Shown here piece after piece: positions 3,788 to 35,185 of a DNA stretch of 64,000 nt; position 1 is the first letter of the stretch; every line of letters begins with the position of its first letter. The stretch is taken from positions 62,001 through 126,000 of the forward strand of contig NZ_JADFBY010000010.1 of the NCBI RefSeq assembly GCF_015223065.1, written 5' to 3'. The stretch is from Mucilaginibacter sp. JRF (GTDB lineage Bacteria > Bacteroidota > Bacteroidia > Sphingobacteriales > Sphingobacteriaceae). A program made the position numbers and the translations under genes. The notes beneath the pieces are model-generated. The model worked only from the letters and a program-made list of their open reading frames with translations. It did not search any database and had not been told where the DNA came from.

Positions 3788-5431
3788 ATGCTGTCAAATA
3801 AAAAAGTAGCTGTTTTTACTAAAAATCTGCCTGTAGTTATAGCCATTTTAATGTTTTGGGGTTGCGCCAACATGAAAAGACCGGAAGGTGGCCCGCGAGA
3901 TCTGACCCCACCAAAACTGGTGAGGGCTATACCCGAAAACATGACACGCAATTTTAAGGCAAAACAAATAACACTTGAATTTGACGAGTTTTTTAAACTC
4001 ACCAATCAATACCAGGAAATAAGCATGAGCCCGGTGCAGGAGAAATTGCCCGAGTACAACATTCGTGGCCAAAGCCTGGTGATAGATTTTAAGGACACGC
4101 TGCAAAAAAATACAACGTACGTTATCAACTTTGGTAAAGCCATTGCCGATGTTAATGAATCGAACGCGTTGAAGAATTTTACCTACGTATTTTCAACCGG
4201 CCCGCATATCGACTCATTAAGCATAAGCGGTAGTGTAACCAATACCCAAACGCAGGAGAAAGAGAAAGACATTGCCGTCCTACTCTACCCTTTGAGTAAA
4301 GACACCGCATTTTACAAAAAGAAAAAGCCGGCCATATTCGCACTCACCGATTCATCAGGTAATTTTAGCTTGAATAACCTGAAGGAAGATAAGTACCGTA
4401 TTTACGCCCTAAAGGAATCAGCGCCTAATAAGATATACGATAACGAGTCGGAATTAGTAGGTTTTATAAAAGATACTATCAATCTTACCAAGGATACAGC
4501 CAACATTCAATTACGCTTATTTCAGCAGGAACCTACCAACTTCCGCTTTGTTGACCGTAGGTTTGATGCGGATGGAAAGATACTGTTAGCCTTTAACAAG
4601 CAATTACAGCGGCCTACGGTAAAAATAATTAGTCCGGCTAACCTGGATAACCAAAAGATATTGGAATTCAGCAGCAAGCGCGATACAGCCCTGATGTATA
4701 TGCGTACTATGGATTTTGATTCGGTAAGCATACAGGTAGCTGACAACAACAAGCCAATTGATACTGTAACGCTACGAAAAAGCCGCAAGGAAAGCTTTAA
4801 GAAAGGCGTTACACTGAGTTTTAATACTGGTAGTGATAACAAGCTTAAACCAGGTACTGATATGCTGATAACATCCAACTTGCCTATTGAAACCGTAAAC
4901 AGTACATTGATGACCTTAAAAGAAGATTCGGCTACTGTAACAGGATTTACTATAACTAAGGACAGTACATCGCGCCGCTTATCGATGAAATACCGTTGGA
5001 AACAGGGAGTAACCTATCAGTTAGCTATTGCTGATGACGCGTTAACTGATCTGTATGGTAATAAGAACAAAGCCGCCGTTAAGAAATTCGATATAGATAA
5101 ACCGGAGAATTATAGCCAGCTCACGCTAAAAATAACTGTACCCGAGCCGAATAAGAATTATGTGATACAGCTATATCGTGATGAAAAGAATATACTACGA
5201 ACTGATGTCATCAATAAAAACTCATCAGTAGTATATAATAACTACATTAATGGCAAGTACCACGTAAAGGTTATTTACGATGCCAACAAGAATGGCAAAT
5301 GGGATAGCGGTAACGTAAAGGAAAGTCGTCAGCCTGAGAATATATGGCTGTATGATAAAGAAATAACCCTACGCCCTAACTGGGATGCGGAGGAGGCTAT
5401 AACTATACCTAAAGAGCCGGTTACACCTTAA
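3788..5431 (+). CDS. Ig-like domain lipoprotein
   Basis: Predicted lipoprotein of 547 residues. A hydrophobic N-terminus ends in a lipobox-like LMFWGC with the acceptor Cys at residue 26. The next segment, RPEGGPRDLTPPK, and a following all-beta region of about 100 residues are typical of the Bacteroidota SbsA-type Ig-like domain family. A carboxypeptidase-regulatory-like stretch (about residues 140-215) and further beta-rich segments follow. No catalytic motif was seen. It is probably anchored in the outer membrane facing the periplasm or surface; its role is unknown. Its last 11 bases overlap the end of the convergent carbonic-anhydrase-like gene. Confidence 0.8.
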   Translation: MLSNKKVAVFTKNLPVVIAILMFWGCANMKRPEGGPRDLTPPKLVRAIPENMTRNFKAKQITLEFDEFFKLTNQYQEISMSPVQEKLPEYNIRGQSLVIDFKDTLQKNTTYVINFGKAIADVNESNALKNFTYVFSTGPHIDSLSISGSVTNTQTQEKEKDIAVLLYPLSKDTAFYKKKKPAIFALTDSSGNFSLNNLKEDKYRIYALKESAPNKIYDNESELVGFIKDTINLTKDTANIQLRLFQQEPTNFRFVDRRFDADGKILLAFNKQLQRPTVKIISPANLDNQKILEFSSKRDTALMYMRTMDFDSVSIQVADNNKPIDTVTLRKSRKESFKKGVTLSFNTGSDNKLKPGTDMLITSNLPIETVNSTLMTLKEDSATVTGFTITKDSTSRRLSMKYRWKQGVTYQLAIADDALTDLYGNKNKAAVKKFDIDKPENYSQLTLKITVPEPNKNYVIQLYRDEKNILRTDVINKNSSVVYNNYINGKYHVKVIYDANKNGKWDSGNVKESRQPENIWLYDKEITLRPNWDAEEAITIPKEPVTP

Positions 5432-5933
5432 ACCAGCTTGAATACATGATATAATTATTGGGCAAACGGGTAAGCAATTCCCGTTGCTCATCAGTTAATG
5501 GCTTTATTTTTTTGGCGGGTGTGCCTGCGTATAAGTAACCACTTTCGCATATAGTATTCTCCAACACTACCGAGCCTGCACCTATTATAACAAAGGGTTC
5601 AACAATGGCATTATCCATTATTATGGCGCCCATGCCCACCAAAACATTATCATGCAGCGTACAACCGTGCACAATGGCATTGTGCCCTATTGATGTATTG
5701 TTACCAATATTGGTAGTTGATTTTTGATAGGTGGCATGTATAACCGCACCATCCTGTATATTACTGTTATTGCCTATGGTAATGGTATTTACATCGCCTC
5801 GAATTACGGCGTTGAACCATACCGAACAATTATGGCCCATAGTTACATCACCAACAATGGTACAGTTTTCGGCAATAAAACAATCATCGCCCCAAACCGG
5901 CGATTTATCTTTTACGGGCAGTATAACAGTCAT
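5421..5933 (-). CDS. Gamma carbonic anhydrase-like hexapeptide-repeat protein
   Basis: Left-handed beta-helix protein of 170 residues in the gamma-CA/YrdA/PaaY group. Seen: N-terminal segment SPVWGDDCFIAENCTIVGDV, the WFNAVIRGD motif with the conserved Arg-Gly-Asp, many hexapeptide repeats, and metal-ligand-type His residues in IQDGAVIHAT and in the SIGHNAIVHG segment. The three His of gamma carbonic anhydrases are thus present, but many such proteins lack measurable activity and some act on CoA thioesters, so I give no symbol. The 3' end overlaps the upstream lipoprotein gene on the other strand. Confidence 0.88.
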   Translation of the reverse strand: MTVILPVKDKSPVWGDDCFIAENCTIVGDVTMGHNCSVWFNAVIRGDVNTITIGNNSNIQDGAVIHATYQKSTTNIGNNTSIGHNAIVHGCTLHDNVLVGMGAIIMDNAIVEPFVIIGAGSVVLENTICESGYLYAGTPAKKIKPLTDEQRELLTRLPNNYIMYSSWFKV

Positions 5934-6004: not shown

Positions 6005-6077
6005 GCGAAAATAGCTCAGTTGGTAGAGCATCAGTTTCCCAAACTGAAGGCCGCGGGTTCGAATCCCGTTTTTCGCT
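6005..6077 (+). tRNA. tRNA-Gly (anticodon CCC)
   Basis: Full cloverleaf: acceptor stem GCGAAAA (6005-6011) with TTTTCGC (6070-6076), D stem GCTC/GAGC, anticodon stem TCAGT/ACTGA with loop TTCCCAA and anticodon CCC at 6038-6040, variable loop AGGCC, T arm GCGGG-TTCGAAT-CCCGT. The discriminator base is U73, as expected for bacterial tRNA-Gly. CCA is not encoded. The discriminator base overlaps the stop codon of the gene on the opposite strand. Confidence 0.95.
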
Positions 6078-7132
6078 CAATTAATATTTTTAGATTTATT
6101 AAATATATTAAGGAAATCATTTGCTGTTTTTACACCACTCATTTTCTGATTTCCATATTCAAAATATTCTTCTAAATAATTTGTAGAATTTTTCAAACAT
6201 GCTAAATAGTGTTGAAAATAAAATAACGGCAAACCAAAACTCAATTTATCTTCTCTAATTTCAGAAGTAAATTGATCAACGAATGTTAAATAATGAACTC
6301 GATGTTTATTCAAAAGTTCACTAATTTCTCCAATATACTTAATATCGAAAAATTGAAATCTCTCCAGTTCCCCTATAAAATCATTCTTTTCATAAAAAAT
6401 ACATCCTGTATTTTTTTGAATGATATTTAAAGCTTCCTTAAAAATTTTATTTGTTTTGATAAAAGAAATAATTGATACCTGATCAATTTTTACACTCTTT
6501 GGATTCTTTTTAATATCTTCTTTAACATCATCTTTAAAAGCAAATAAATCAGTTTTTAATCTGTCAAACTCTATATCAGCAGTTTCTAATAGTGCCGATA
6601 ATCTATTGAAATTTCTTTTAAATTTATCAGGAATAGCAATTTCCCCCTTATAACCCAAATCGTGTTCAATTTCAGCCCAAGCATGTTGAAGAATTGATCT
6701 AACTTGTATTTCTAATTTCAATTCTTGATACCTCTTGTATTCTGATAATTTGAGCCTTTCGTTAGTTAATGATATTACGTAATGGAGCGATTTGTATCCA
6801 AATTGATCTGCTTTCAATTTTCTCTTGTCGACTGAATTTGCATAATCAACCTCAAATTCCTTTTCAATTATCTGTGCTACCTTATTAACATCACTGTCCA
6901 AATATGTTATTATACGAATACCACATATGTCAGTAATTTCAGATATATCTTTATATTTATTTCCTTTTGCCTCAATCTTCCTTTCTAAACTCTGTGATTT
7001 TTTTATTCGAAAAGTTATGTGATGAACATTTATTCCAACATCATTTAATAAATCAACTATAAGAGTTTTGCACTTCTCAGTGAAAGAAGAATAAATACTG
7101 GAATTTTTAGACAATTGCTCTATGATGTTCAT
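6077..7132 (-). CDS. RelA/SpoT-domain protein (putative small alarmone synthetase), AT-rich
   Basis: 351 residues. The N-terminal ~220 residues carry the (p)ppGpp-synthetase fold: ATP-site pattern RIKKSQSLERKIEAKG (about 42-57), SEITDICGIRIITYL (about 64-78), FGYKSLHYVISL and the closing EIQVRSILQHAWAEIEHDL. These match the residues usually needed for pyrophosphate transfer, so activity is likely. No HD hydrolase or TGS domain is present. The C-terminal ~120 residues are unrecognised. Base use differs from the neighbours: 16 of 60 bases are G or C at 6361-6420, against 27 of 60 at 7201-7260 in nadB. The gene follows nadB by 16 bp on the same strand, and its TGA overlaps the last base of tRNA-Gly. 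This suggests acquisition at the tRNA; a toxic synthetase (toxSAS-like) role is possible but no separate antitoxin gene is seen. Confidence 0.85.
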   Translation of the reverse strand: MNIIEQLSKNSSIYSSFTEKCKTLIVDLLNDVGINVHHITFRIKKSQSLERKIEAKGNKYKDISEITDICGIRIITYLDSDVNKVAQIIEKEFEVDYANSVDKRKLKADQFGYKSLHYVISLTNERLKLSEYKRYQELKLEIQVRSILQHAWAEIEHDLGYKGEIAIPDKFKRNFNRLSALLETADIEFDRLKTDLFAFKDDVKEDIKKNPKSVKIDQVSIISFIKTNKIFKEALNIIQKNTGCIFYEKNDFIGELERFQFFDIKYIGEISELLNKHRVHYLTFVDQFTSEIREDKLSFGLPLFYFQHYLACLKNSTNYLEEYFEYGNQKMSGVKTANDFLNIFNKSKNIN

Positions 7133-7148
7133 TTTTTATAATTGCAAA

Positions 7149-8741
7149 TTATATTATAGTATCGTACAATTCCGTAGCGTGTTCGGGGTAATCGGTAGTA
7201 TAATGTAAGCCCCTGCTCTCCTTACGTAACATGGCCGATTTAATTACCAGGTACGATACCTGTATTAAATTACGCAACTCACAAAGTTTTACCGAAAGTT
7301 TGGTTCGCTTATAAAATTCCTCGGTTTCCTCGTGCAATAAACCTAAGCGGCGCATGGCCCTTTCCAACCTGAAATCAGAACGGACTATACCTACATAATC
7401 ATTCATCACCTTCTGCATTTCGCGAACGTTGTGTGTTACCAATATATCCTCGTTTGATAATTGAACACCCTTTTCGTCCCAATCAGGTATATTATCAGGT
7501 ACTGCCGCGCTTTCAAAGGTTTTAACAGCATCCTCATATATACGGTGAGCGAATACCAATGCCTCTAATAATGAGTTAGATGCCAATCTGTTAGCCCCAT
7601 GCAAACCGGTTGATGAACATTCACCACAGGCATATAATTGTAATATTGATGAACGGCCAACATGATCAACCGAAATACCGCCACACATATAATGGCAAGC
7701 CGGCGCTACAGGGATCATGTCCCTGGTCATATCCAAACCAATATCTAAACACTTGGCATATATATTAGGGAAGTGCTGAATGATATCAGATTTACTACGA
7801 TGGCGGATATCCAGGTAAACATAATCTTCACCCGATTTCTTTATTTCAGAATCGATAGCCCGGGCAACCACATCACGCGGAGCTAATGATTTGCGTTCAT
7901 CATACTCCTGCATAAATTCTTCGCCATTGGTACGTTTTAATATACCACCAAAACCGCGCACAGCTTCGGATATTAAAAATGATGGATATTCACCAGGATT
8001 ATATAATGCTGTTGGATGGAATTGTATGAATTCCATATTACGTACTTTACCTTTAGCACGATACACCATCGCCACACCATCACCAGTAGCAATGGTAGGG
8101 TTTGTAGTTACCGAGTAGATATGCCCCGCACCACCCGAAGCCATTACAGTAACCTTTGATAATATCTTTTCAACCTCGTTAGTTTCGGTATTAAAGGCAT
8201 ATATACCATAACAGGTAATATCGGTTGATGATTTATCAACAAACTTACCCAGATGGTGCTGCGTGATCAGATCGACAGCAAAATAATGCGTAAGTATTTC
8301 AATATTAGGGTTTTGATGTATTTGCTCTAATAAGGCACGTTCAATTTCAAAACCGGTGATATCCTTATAATGTAGTACACGAAATTCGGAGTGGCCGCCC
8401 TCTTTTGCAAGGTCATAAATACCATCGTGGGTCTTGTCGAAATTGGTTCCGTAATCAATAATTTCATTAATTCTTTCCGGACCTTCCTTAACAACAATTT
8501 CCACAACTTCCGGATCACACAGCCCATCACCGGCAATAAGGGTGTCTTTTATATGCTTTTCAAACGAATCTTCTTTTTTATCCACAACCACCGCGACACC
8601 TCCCTGGGCATACTTAGTGTTTGATTCATCTTCATTTGCCTTTGTAACTATCAGTACCTTACCATGCTTTGCAGCCTTAAGTGCAAAACTCAGTCCGGCA
8701 ATGCCTGAACCAATTACCAGGAAATCCACATTTCGGGTCAT
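7149..8741 (-). CDS. nadB: L-aspartate oxidase
   Basis: FAD enzyme that oxidises L-aspartate to iminoaspartate, the first step of de novo NAD synthesis. 530 residues, normal length. Seen: N-terminal FAD motif VIGSGIAGLSFALKAA, the TKYAQGGVAVV segment, FIQFHPTALYNPG around the active site, PVAPACHYMCGGI and the flavin-capping GECSSTGLHGANRLASNSL. It is divergent from nadA, which uses its product, across a 409-bp AT-rich gap. The AT-rich RelA/SpoT-domain gene directly follows it and could be co-transcribed. Confidence 0.95.
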   Translation of the reverse strand: MTRNVDFLVIGSGIAGLSFALKAAKHGKVLIVTKANEDESNTKYAQGGVAVVVDKKEDSFEKHIKDTLIAGDGLCDPEVVEIVVKEGPERINEIIDYGTNFDKTHDGIYDLAKEGGHSEFRVLHYKDITGFEIERALLEQIHQNPNIEILTHYFAVDLITQHHLGKFVDKSSTDITCYGIYAFNTETNEVEKILSKVTVMASGGAGHIYSVTTNPTIATGDGVAMVYRAKGKVRNMEFIQFHPTALYNPGEYPSFLISEAVRGFGGILKRTNGEEFMQEYDERKSLAPRDVVARAIDSEIKKSGEDYVYLDIRHRSKSDIIQHFPNIYAKCLDIGLDMTRDMIPVAPACHYMCGGISVDHVGRSSILQLYACGECSSTGLHGANRLASNSLLEALVFAHRIYEDAVKTFESAAVPDNIPDWDEKGVQLSNEDILVTHNVREMQKVMNDYVGIVRSDFRLERAMRRLGLLHEETEEFYKRTKLSVKLCELRNLIQVSYLVIKSAMLRKESRGLHYTTDYPEHATELYDTII

Positions 8742-34390: not shown

Positions 34391-35185
34391 CTATATTGCT
34401 AAGGTCTTTTCAATCATGTAAGCAACTTTGTTGATTGATGAGCAGTTCTTTTCAACATTAGGATAGTGTGTCGAGAATAGCTTTTTCCAAGTGCCATTCG
34501 CTGTTCGTGATGGATGAGGAAACATCAATCGTTTTGCGCTTATTTGAAGTTCCATACTATCAATTGCATTTGCTGCTTTCTTACCATACACCACTAATAG
34601 ATCAGGTTGCAACAAATTAATCTCTGCTTGTAGGGTTTGTTTAAATCCTTCTGCCAAATCACCTGGTATATTTTCTTTAGTTCCCGTAGTGGCTTTTAGC
34701 CAAATTTTATTAATGTCTGTTATATAAACATTAAACCCGTTATTTAATAACTCGTGATGAAAATCCCAATATTCTTTTAGTGCTCGTCTCATTGATTCTA
34801 AATGAGTAGCAAAGGGGGTGCCTAATAAAGCATATTCTTTACTCGCTGAAATCAAAGGATCTGCGGGGTTACGCAAAGGATCTTCTGCAACTACAACAAC
34901 GTTTTTAATATTTCCTGGTTTACTAATATAAATTGGCAAGTCAATCCCGAGATAGTAATTAGTATCGTTGTATTTGGTAATGAATAAACTATCATTAGTG
35001 ATAGGTTGAATCTGAGATCTGTTTAAATGAGGCATTACATAACTCAAATGAGCATCTGTATTTTCAAAACAGTCACAAAAAAAACTGTAAGAGGCAACGA
35101 AAGCTGATCGGTCAATTGAGAATGTTTTTTCAAACGCAGTGACAATCCCATTAATTGTAGTCGTAGAAAAATTGCAGAATTCCAT
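34391..35185 (-). CDS. Uracil-DNA-glycosylase-like fold protein, function unknown
   Basis: 264 residues. Features suggest the UDG superfamily: NVVVVAEDPLRNPADPL (early motif with Pro-rich loop), LLQPDLLVVYGKKAANAI (central strand followed by a helix), and LMFPHPSRTANGTWKKLF, whose HPS resembles the second motif of UDGs. The N-terminal ~85 residues are not recognised. No 4Fe-4S Cys pattern is seen. Base composition is slightly lower in G+C than its neighbours (23 of 60 at 34801-34860). It could act in base repair or in modified-DNA defence, but that is inference. It stands alone, convergent with the GIN-domain gene. Confidence 0.65.
   Translation of the reverse strand: MEFCNFSTTTINGIVTAFEKTFSIDRSAFVASYSFFCDCFENTDAHLSYVMPHLNRSQIQPITNDSLFITKYNDTNYYLGIDLPIYISKPGNIKNVVVVAEDPLRNPADPLISASKEYALLGTPFATHLESMRRALKEYWDFHHELLNNGFNVYITDINKIWLKATTGTKENIPGDLAEGFKQTLQAEINLLQPDLLVVYGKKAANAIDSMELQISAKRLMFPHPSRTANGTWKKLFSTHYPNVEKNCSSINKVAYMIEKTLAI

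Follow-up and report, generated by a model that had tools for sequence, protein, structure and literature searches.

The window, the whole 64,000-nucleotide stretch of Mucilaginibacter sp. JRF DNA that was analysed, carries between tRNA-Gly(CCC) and nadB a single AT-rich gene encoding a small alarmone synthetase (SAS) with an additional C-terminal domain. With evenly balanced confidence, we read it as a standalone mobile (p)ppGpp synthetase in a cargo site, putatively gated by its C-terminal domain and possibly serving phage defence. The synthetase is the sole gene between nadB and the tRNA, and no integrase was found in the insert (Table 1). The initial annotation of this DNA described its borders correctly: the stop codon (6077-6079) overlaps the discriminator base of the tRNA (T at 6077) and the start codon follows nadB after 16 bp (7133-7148). 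Equally sound was its remark that the G+C content is far below that of the neighbours, at 26.5% (GC3 19%) against 41.0% for nadB, 40.9% for paaY and 43.9% for the window, the lowest value among the 40 window ORFs of at least 200 aa. Next in AT-richness among the long ORFs is the one at 34391-35185, with 34.8% G+C.

Table 1. Positions in the window of the synthetase gene, its domains and its bordering features
Feature	Position	Strand	Basis or remark
351-aa small alarmone synthetase ORF	6077..7132	-	PF04607 and PHROG 9640 matches; entire insert except ~16 bp
RelQ/RelP-like synthetase domain, N-terminal, residues 1-204	6521..7132	-	Pfam, alignment, predicted structure
C-terminal mostly helical domain, residues 205-351, putative regulator or sensor	6080..6520	-	Model, alignment
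tRNA-Gly(CCC), left border of synthetase insert, convergent with nadB	6005..6078	+	
16-bp spacer, nadB stop to synthetase start	7133..7148	none	
nadB (L-aspartate oxidase), right border of insert	7149..8741	-	Stop codon 7149-7151
Hexapeptide-repeat protein gene, presumably paaY, conserved neighbour beyond tRNA	5421..5933	-	

PF04607 (RelA_SpoT) matches residues 42-164 of the protein with an E-value of 3.3e-21 (76.1 bits against a cut-off of 27) and is its only Pfam match up to E 1, in agreement with the initial statement that there is no hydrolase domain. Scanning named genomes, we retained the 80 best of 300 relatives and aligned 63 of these with the window protein, leaving out 17 near-duplicates or unusually short or long sequences. 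The nine residues R42, K44, K52, D68, R73, Y113, E141, Q143 and R145 are identical in all 64 proteins, and G112-Y113 is listed among the invariant residues of the synthetase domain; the catalytic motifs are thus as intact as they had first appeared. The strong RelA_SpoT match and the 64-row alignment with its invariant catalytic residues rule out an ORF that arose by chance or misannotation, and an inactivated remnant is unsupported, the catalytic residues being intact. By motif, these residues would be the donor, Mg, G-loop and adenine-contact residues that the available text of PMC11782079 describes for FaRel2. The protein has the features of an SAS, namely a curated-level SYNTH domain, no HD domain and intact catalytic residues; it lies outside the RelQ equivalog NF053588, with 62.9 bits against a cut-off of 320. 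The PADLOC candidate model PDC-S33 matches only its N-terminal domain, as it does in all 64 aligned members. To judge from the sequence, the putative product is quite probably (p)ppGpp. The host genome (4.9 Mb, 33 contigs) contains one other RelA_SpoT match, within a 775-aa open frame on contig C2 that also holds its only HD_4 hydrolase match and so represents the long Rel.

Both sequence and structure comparisons place the catalytic domain closest to RelQ (YjbM) and RelP (YwaC, S. aureus SAS2). Profile matches to the RelQ/RelP class range from 1e-22 to 7e-17 (YjbM 8e-22, YwaC 1e-19, S. aureus RelP 5e-17), against 9e-6 for CapRel. In the full-length model (pLDDT 94.1, pTM 0.83), residues 1-199 superpose best on RelQ among RelQ/RelP structures (Z 18.9, 183 residues, 2.9 A), against Z 13.0 for CapRel (174 residues, 3.3 A) and Z 8.2 for FaRel2 (124 residues, 3.7 A). 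The matched RelQ/RelP chains comprise 209-255 residues; the window synthetase differs in its additional domain of 147 residues and in being distributed as a mobile gene. These comparisons bear on the alternative of a CapRel-type fused toxin-antitoxin, in which the N domain would be a toxSAS (acting by tRNA pyrophosphorylation or through (pp)pApp) and the C domain both antitoxin and phage sensor, the functions given for the C-terminal domain of CapRel in the available part of PMC9712102. The window protein shares with CapRel the layout of a single gene with a synthetase domain followed by a C-terminal domain, a similar length (351 against 373 residues) and the lack of a conserved partner gene, and both it and its homologue in genome G114 carry a YXXY motif near the C-terminus; 37 of the 64 aligned proteins have such a motif somewhere within their 60 C-terminal residues, a count for which no chance expectation was computed. 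However, YXXY stands at the aligned place of the window protein in only eight of the 64 and so at no fixed place, the catalytic domain is more distant from CapRel than from RelQ/RelP, and the C-terminal domain is predicted to be mostly helical, without the pseudo-zinc-finger beta sheet; we consider this alternative unlikely. The toxin idea raised in the initial annotation is, in its toxSAS form, less well supported, the catalytic domain being nearer RelQ/RelP than CapRel/FaRel2 and no conserved partner gene of at least 60 aa being present. Bicistronic toxSAS systems have an adjacent antitoxin gene, whereas the window insert has one gene only.

The C-terminal part, given initially as 120 residues, comprises about 147 (205-351). 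The structure prediction that the initial annotation had proposed for it, made for the domain alone, yielded a confident model (pLDDT 94.6, pTM 0.90), mostly helical with two strands of three residues each. No solved structure matched the domain alone (Foldseek gave a best E of 2.2 and VIA, among 121 chains, a best Z of 2.2), which does not prove the predicted fold to be new. The domain is fast-evolving, since its mean majority-residue frequency in the 64-protein alignment is 0.32, against 0.60 for the N part, and its identity to the G114 copy is 47%, against 61%. We lean towards a role as a putative regulator or sensor. Of the 80 named relatives, four, all among the 17 left out of the alignment, are read as proteins of 191-210 aa that lack this domain. 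Shuffling of the domain between protein families was considered and rejected, because a profile search of 296 phylum genomes (E 0.001) returned five loci, mostly synthetases: the window's own, two further synthetases (L316, L318), an SMI1/KNR4-like protein (L319) and a weak, probably chance match (L320). A search of 395 class genomes (E 0.0001) returned three loci, all synthetases, two of them already among those of the phylum search. The protein at L319 (genome G486), which we take to be SMI1/KNR4-like, has a C-terminal part resembling that of the synthetases (E 1.9e-7) and an in-frame stop; as a single case it is a lead only.

The family is widely but thinly distributed. The best 80 of 300 relatives come from Bacteroidota, Bacillota, Pseudomonadota, Actinomycetota, Acidobacteriota, Campylobacterota, Ignavibacteriota, Fidelibacterota, Saccharimonadota and a Methanoregula MAG, and at E 1e-15 or better 14 of 399 family genomes have a match, counting partial ones. 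Of the 58 loci compared for G+C, 55 have a gene richer in AT than the sequence around it (mean difference -9 points); the others of the 80 are redundant, from Exiguobacterium or short in their flanks. In the 77 of 80 loci analysed for neighbours, no conserved adjacent gene of at least 60 aa occurs outside Exiguobacterium (shorter genes would be missed), the largest other neighbour cluster comprising seven loci at varying offsets; a multi-gene defence operon or toxin-antitoxin pair was rejected on this ground. PADLOC matches among 147 neighbour proteins from 60 chromosomal loci include MADS, AriA and methyltransferase models, with no control for this count, and such defence-type neighbours are, at the level of sequence matches, suggestive only.

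A connection with phages appears in several collections. Residues 3-344 of the window protein align with positions 7-357 of the 365 in PHROG 9640 (E 7.1e-82), a nearly full-length match to a family for which PHROGs gives no function and to which the present analysis adds an assigned catalytic domain and a model of the second domain. Relatives are encoded by 62 predicted viral contigs, which may contain host DNA. Seven of the 38 contigs examined share a left-hand gene pair and seven share a right-hand gene; scanned representatives of these shared neighbours match baseplate and tail-completion families, and the synthetase gene therefore lies antisense between phage structural genes there, in contexts that we infer to be P2-like. 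This location differs from the cos-proximal P2 hotspot described in the available text of PMC9122126. A Bacteroides plasmid record rich in phage genes encodes a relative with 45% identity over 89% of the query, again antisense, between a small terminase-adjoining gene and an HNH gene, and matches that are more distant or confined to the N-terminal part were found in a filamentous phage of Vibrio and a Klebsiella plasmid of 3.5 kb. Coverage of 80% of the query is reached by one plasmid record in 72,556 and by no phage record in 50,697 (16 match in part), which leaves PHROG 9640 and the predicted viral contigs as the basis of the phage link; a viral structure library gave partial matches only.

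The protein might instead be a plain extra stress synthetase without a defence role, making (p)ppGpp constitutively or under nutrient regulation, with a C domain for oligomerization or small-molecule allostery. The closeness of its catalytic domain to RelQ/RelP, an Exiguobacterium relative in which conserved neighbours are kept and the co-orientation of the gene downstream of a metabolic gene agree with such a role, but the sporadic occurrence in the family (the 14 of 399 genomes given above), together with the predicted viral contigs and the AT-richness in most loci, points to an accessory mobile gene, and we hold this explanation to be fairly unlikely.

The preferred reading, a mobile synthetase in a cargo site, draws on the history of the nadB-tRNA junction throughout Mucilaginibacter. 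A search of the genus genomes found nadB in 143 of 149, and its 3' flank was examined in 140 loci including the window (G119, G120 and G138, with nadB at or near a contig end, were left out) over a length of 5 kb at most (26 loci with 1.5 kb, less at some contig ends). tRNA-Gly(CCC) faces nadB within 1.8 kb in 132 of the 140; among the remaining eight, one flank has only 104 bases, four are without a paaY match in the flank, and three have paaY but no detected tRNA. The gaps in the 132 loci measure 0-1799 bp, 41 being shorter than 25 bp, 29 of 25-199 bp and 62 of 241-1799 bp. The 62 large gaps have a mean G+C of 31.6%, and 57 of the 59 that allow comparison are poorer in G+C than the DNA to the left of the tRNA. 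Many gaps of 25-199 bp are self-complementary (no control was run), and noncoding gaps of 100-180 bp (for example in G031, G085 and G152) include extended self-complementary segments that share a core and look REP/MITE-like, likewise without a control. The initial annotation had noticed no direct repeat of the tRNA end at the far side of the insert, and there is indeed none at the nadB side, where the best local match scores 6, a value reached by 71% of shuffles. The same test on the 62 inserts gave two values below 0.05; with no repeat above chance, a tRNA-directed integrase element with att repeats was rejected, and neither a target-site duplication nor a tRNA-end repeat was found flanking inserted coding sequence. 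The site is a genus-wide cargo region that has repeatedly gained and lost genes.

Mechanical calling in the gaps of at least 150 bp gave 73 ORFs of at least 60 aa, spread over 59 loci and including that of the window. Sixty-nine of the 73 run in the direction of nadB (binomial 2e-16, relatedness ignored), and in eight loci the stop codon of the nearest one overlaps the tRNA end in the manner of the window. The ORFs form 25 similarity groups, of which representatives of 20, and separately the synthetase group, were scanned against Pfam. Thirteen of the 20 representatives had no match; the matches comprised DUF5071, GIY-YIG, PIN and NADAR and, below the cut-off, Phd/YefM, DUF4261 and DUF6928. 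The two largest groups, in 17 and 14 loci, both have representatives without a Pfam match: one consists of proteins of 163-169 aa (L121, L124, L133, L134, L138, L141, L145 and ten more loci), the other of membrane-like proteins of 174-190 aa, with one 97-aa piece (L007, L017, L019, L020, L026, L083, L084, L087, L103, L104, L133, L135, L144 and L154). The tRNA-Gly/nadB gap of L056 (G081) is occupied by a PIN-domain protein together with one that is Phd/YefM-like (below the cut-off), and GIY-YIG-type cargo is present at L094 (G118, scanned) and L120 (G088, grouped with L094). FaRel2 is specific for tRNA-Gly, according to the available part of its description; a connection between this specificity and the tRNA-Gly border was dismissed as coincidence, because other cargo uses the same border.

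Inserts are not confined to the 3' side of the tRNA. The paaY-tRNA gap has a median of 78 bp and reaches at least 240 bp, with AT-rich genes in most cases, in 21 of 127 loci, which rules out insertion on the 3' side only; in the same 127 loci the nadB side reaches at least 240 bp in 60, and both sides do so in 12. The entire paaY-tRNA-nadB interval thus receives cargo, with the 3' side of the tRNA occupied about three times as often as the 5' side, and promoters on the 5' side may account for the smaller number there. Five loci (L062, L084, L100, L113 and L121) have a similar 75-aa ORF between paaY and tRNA-Gly, accompanied at L100 by a 126-aa PIN-like ORF, and we take the two ORFs of L100 to resemble a toxin-antitoxin pair. 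Since inserts occur on the paaY side and cargo is also present in the tRNA-less G035 and G063, the tRNA 3' end is not the unique target. The next convergent junction, between paaY and its neighbour, is an 11-bp overlap in 99 of 120 loci and exceeds 240 bp in one of 120; as its genes overlap, it makes a weak control.

Outside Mucilaginibacter, 40 loci (L322-L361) representing 21 genera of the family were sampled. tRNA-Gly(CCC) lies at the nadB-paaY junction in six of them, from three genera, from which it follows that the tRNA itself has moved in or out. Twenty-nine of the other 34 loci have paaY adjoining nadB with gaps of 2-216 bp, and five are without a paaY match, one of them (g33) with a flank of 0.5 kb. 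Large gaps occur in 63 of 138 tRNA-bearing loci (tRNA-nadB) against 0 of 29 tRNA-less loci (nadB-paaY; Fisher 2.5e-7), or against 2 of 32 when the three tRNA-less Mucilaginibacter loci, of which G035 and G063 carry cargo, are added (1.2e-5), both figures being descriptive as the species are not independent. The presence of the tRNA goes with cargo and is not strictly necessary for it. Of 93 loci of the synthetase family, some of them redundant or short, three lie within 1 kb of a tRNA, which rules out tRNA adjacency as a habit of the family; the tRNA therefore belongs to the site.

A comparison of the nadB-tRNA junction in close relatives, proposed in the initial annotation, bears on the age of the insertion. 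The three genomes closest by nadB, G124 (97%), G098 (97%) and G071 (96%), have gaps of 18, 4 and 3 bp, respectively, and no synthetase, and the most parsimonious account of these sequences would be a single gain in the window lineage since its split from them. The initial annotation had held that retention of the low-G+C gene at this locus by relatives would speak against acquisition. One relative does carry such a gene there: G114 (locus L070) has a synthetase of 28% G+C that occupies this gap and shares the stop-codon overlap. The gene is nevertheless not a conserved resident, as it is missing from 130 of the 132 tRNA-bearing Mucilaginibacter loci and the two synthetases are only 55% identical (61% in the N part and 47% in the C part), against 89% for nadB. 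An ancestral resident under loss, surviving here only in the window species and G114, would explain why the two share gap and stop-codon overlap and group together, weakly (81/45), in a tree of 44 family members. This explanation appears improbable in view of the three empty nearest relatives, the 130 loci without the gene, the disparity between synthetase and nadB identities and an Ignavibacteriales protein nearly as close to the window synthetase (52% identity), which joins the window and G114 proteins at 100/98. Horizontal acquisition beside a tRNA 3' end, the central proposal of the initial annotation, is supported by the empty nearest relatives, the AT-rich insert, the phylum-patchy family and the predicted viral contigs, and fairly recent acquisition of the AT-rich gene is likewise supported by the sequence comparisons.

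The favoured mechanism is as follows. A gene of the synthetase family that matches PHROG 9640 would have been inserted singly between tRNA-Gly(CCC) and nadB after the split from the nearest relatives. Its transcription would depend on read-through from nadB, because the 16-bp spacer presumably leaves no room for a promoter of its own and 69 of 73 cargo ORFs share the nadB direction. The N-terminal domain would move pyrophosphate from ATP to GTP/GDP, giving (p)ppGpp, and the C-terminal domain would restrain it or sense a trigger, most likely a phage product. On infection, alarmone would be made and growth or phage development slowed, while the bifunctional Rel of the host would clear basal (p)ppGpp leakage. 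A putative anti-phage or inter-phage competition role is proposed tentatively, at somewhat less than even confidence. In the available text of PMC12814882, the loss of (p)ppGpp in P. putida changed phage infection in both directions, which weakens a simple defence story.

Hotspots between conserved genes and SAS proteins are both of already known kinds. Those of P2-like phages and P4 satellites (PMC9122126) and the core defence hotspots of P. aeruginosa (PMC10250203) likewise combine conserved flanks with accessory turnover; as given in the available parts of these reports, the former measure about 1-5 kb and lie in mobile elements, and the latter have medians of 6 and 26 kb and are chromosomal. 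The nadB-tRNA gap, in contrast, measures 0-1.8 kb, often holds one gene and adjoins a tRNA, and its cargo is putative as to anti-phage function. The literature search, in the text available to it, returned no published account of the family combining synthetase and C-terminal domain, of the nadB-tRNA site or of PDC-S33.

A bolder proposal, which we put forward as a speculation with the chances well against it, would be that the family forms a second, independent one-gene class of sensor-fused immune synthetases, with a putative new sensor fold and a chemistry based on (p)ppGpp in place of tRNA or (pp)pApp, and also that tRNA-Gly(CCC), on arriving between nadB and paaY, created a docking region for single genes that needs no integrase and is used mostly on the tRNA 3' side, through which the genus swaps such genes. 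The family, an alarmone synthetase with a fast-evolving and structurally unmatched domain, bears on whether (p)ppGpp, and not only toxSAS chemistry, may serve as an immune effector that responds to a trigger. The site amounts to a natural experiment on a small scale: 132 species share both borders, empty as well as occupied sites are known and the inserts are often single genes. It is well suited to finding accessory genes, since 13 of 20 cargo representatives match no Pfam family, and to asking how bare coding sequences enter a chromosome without an integrase.
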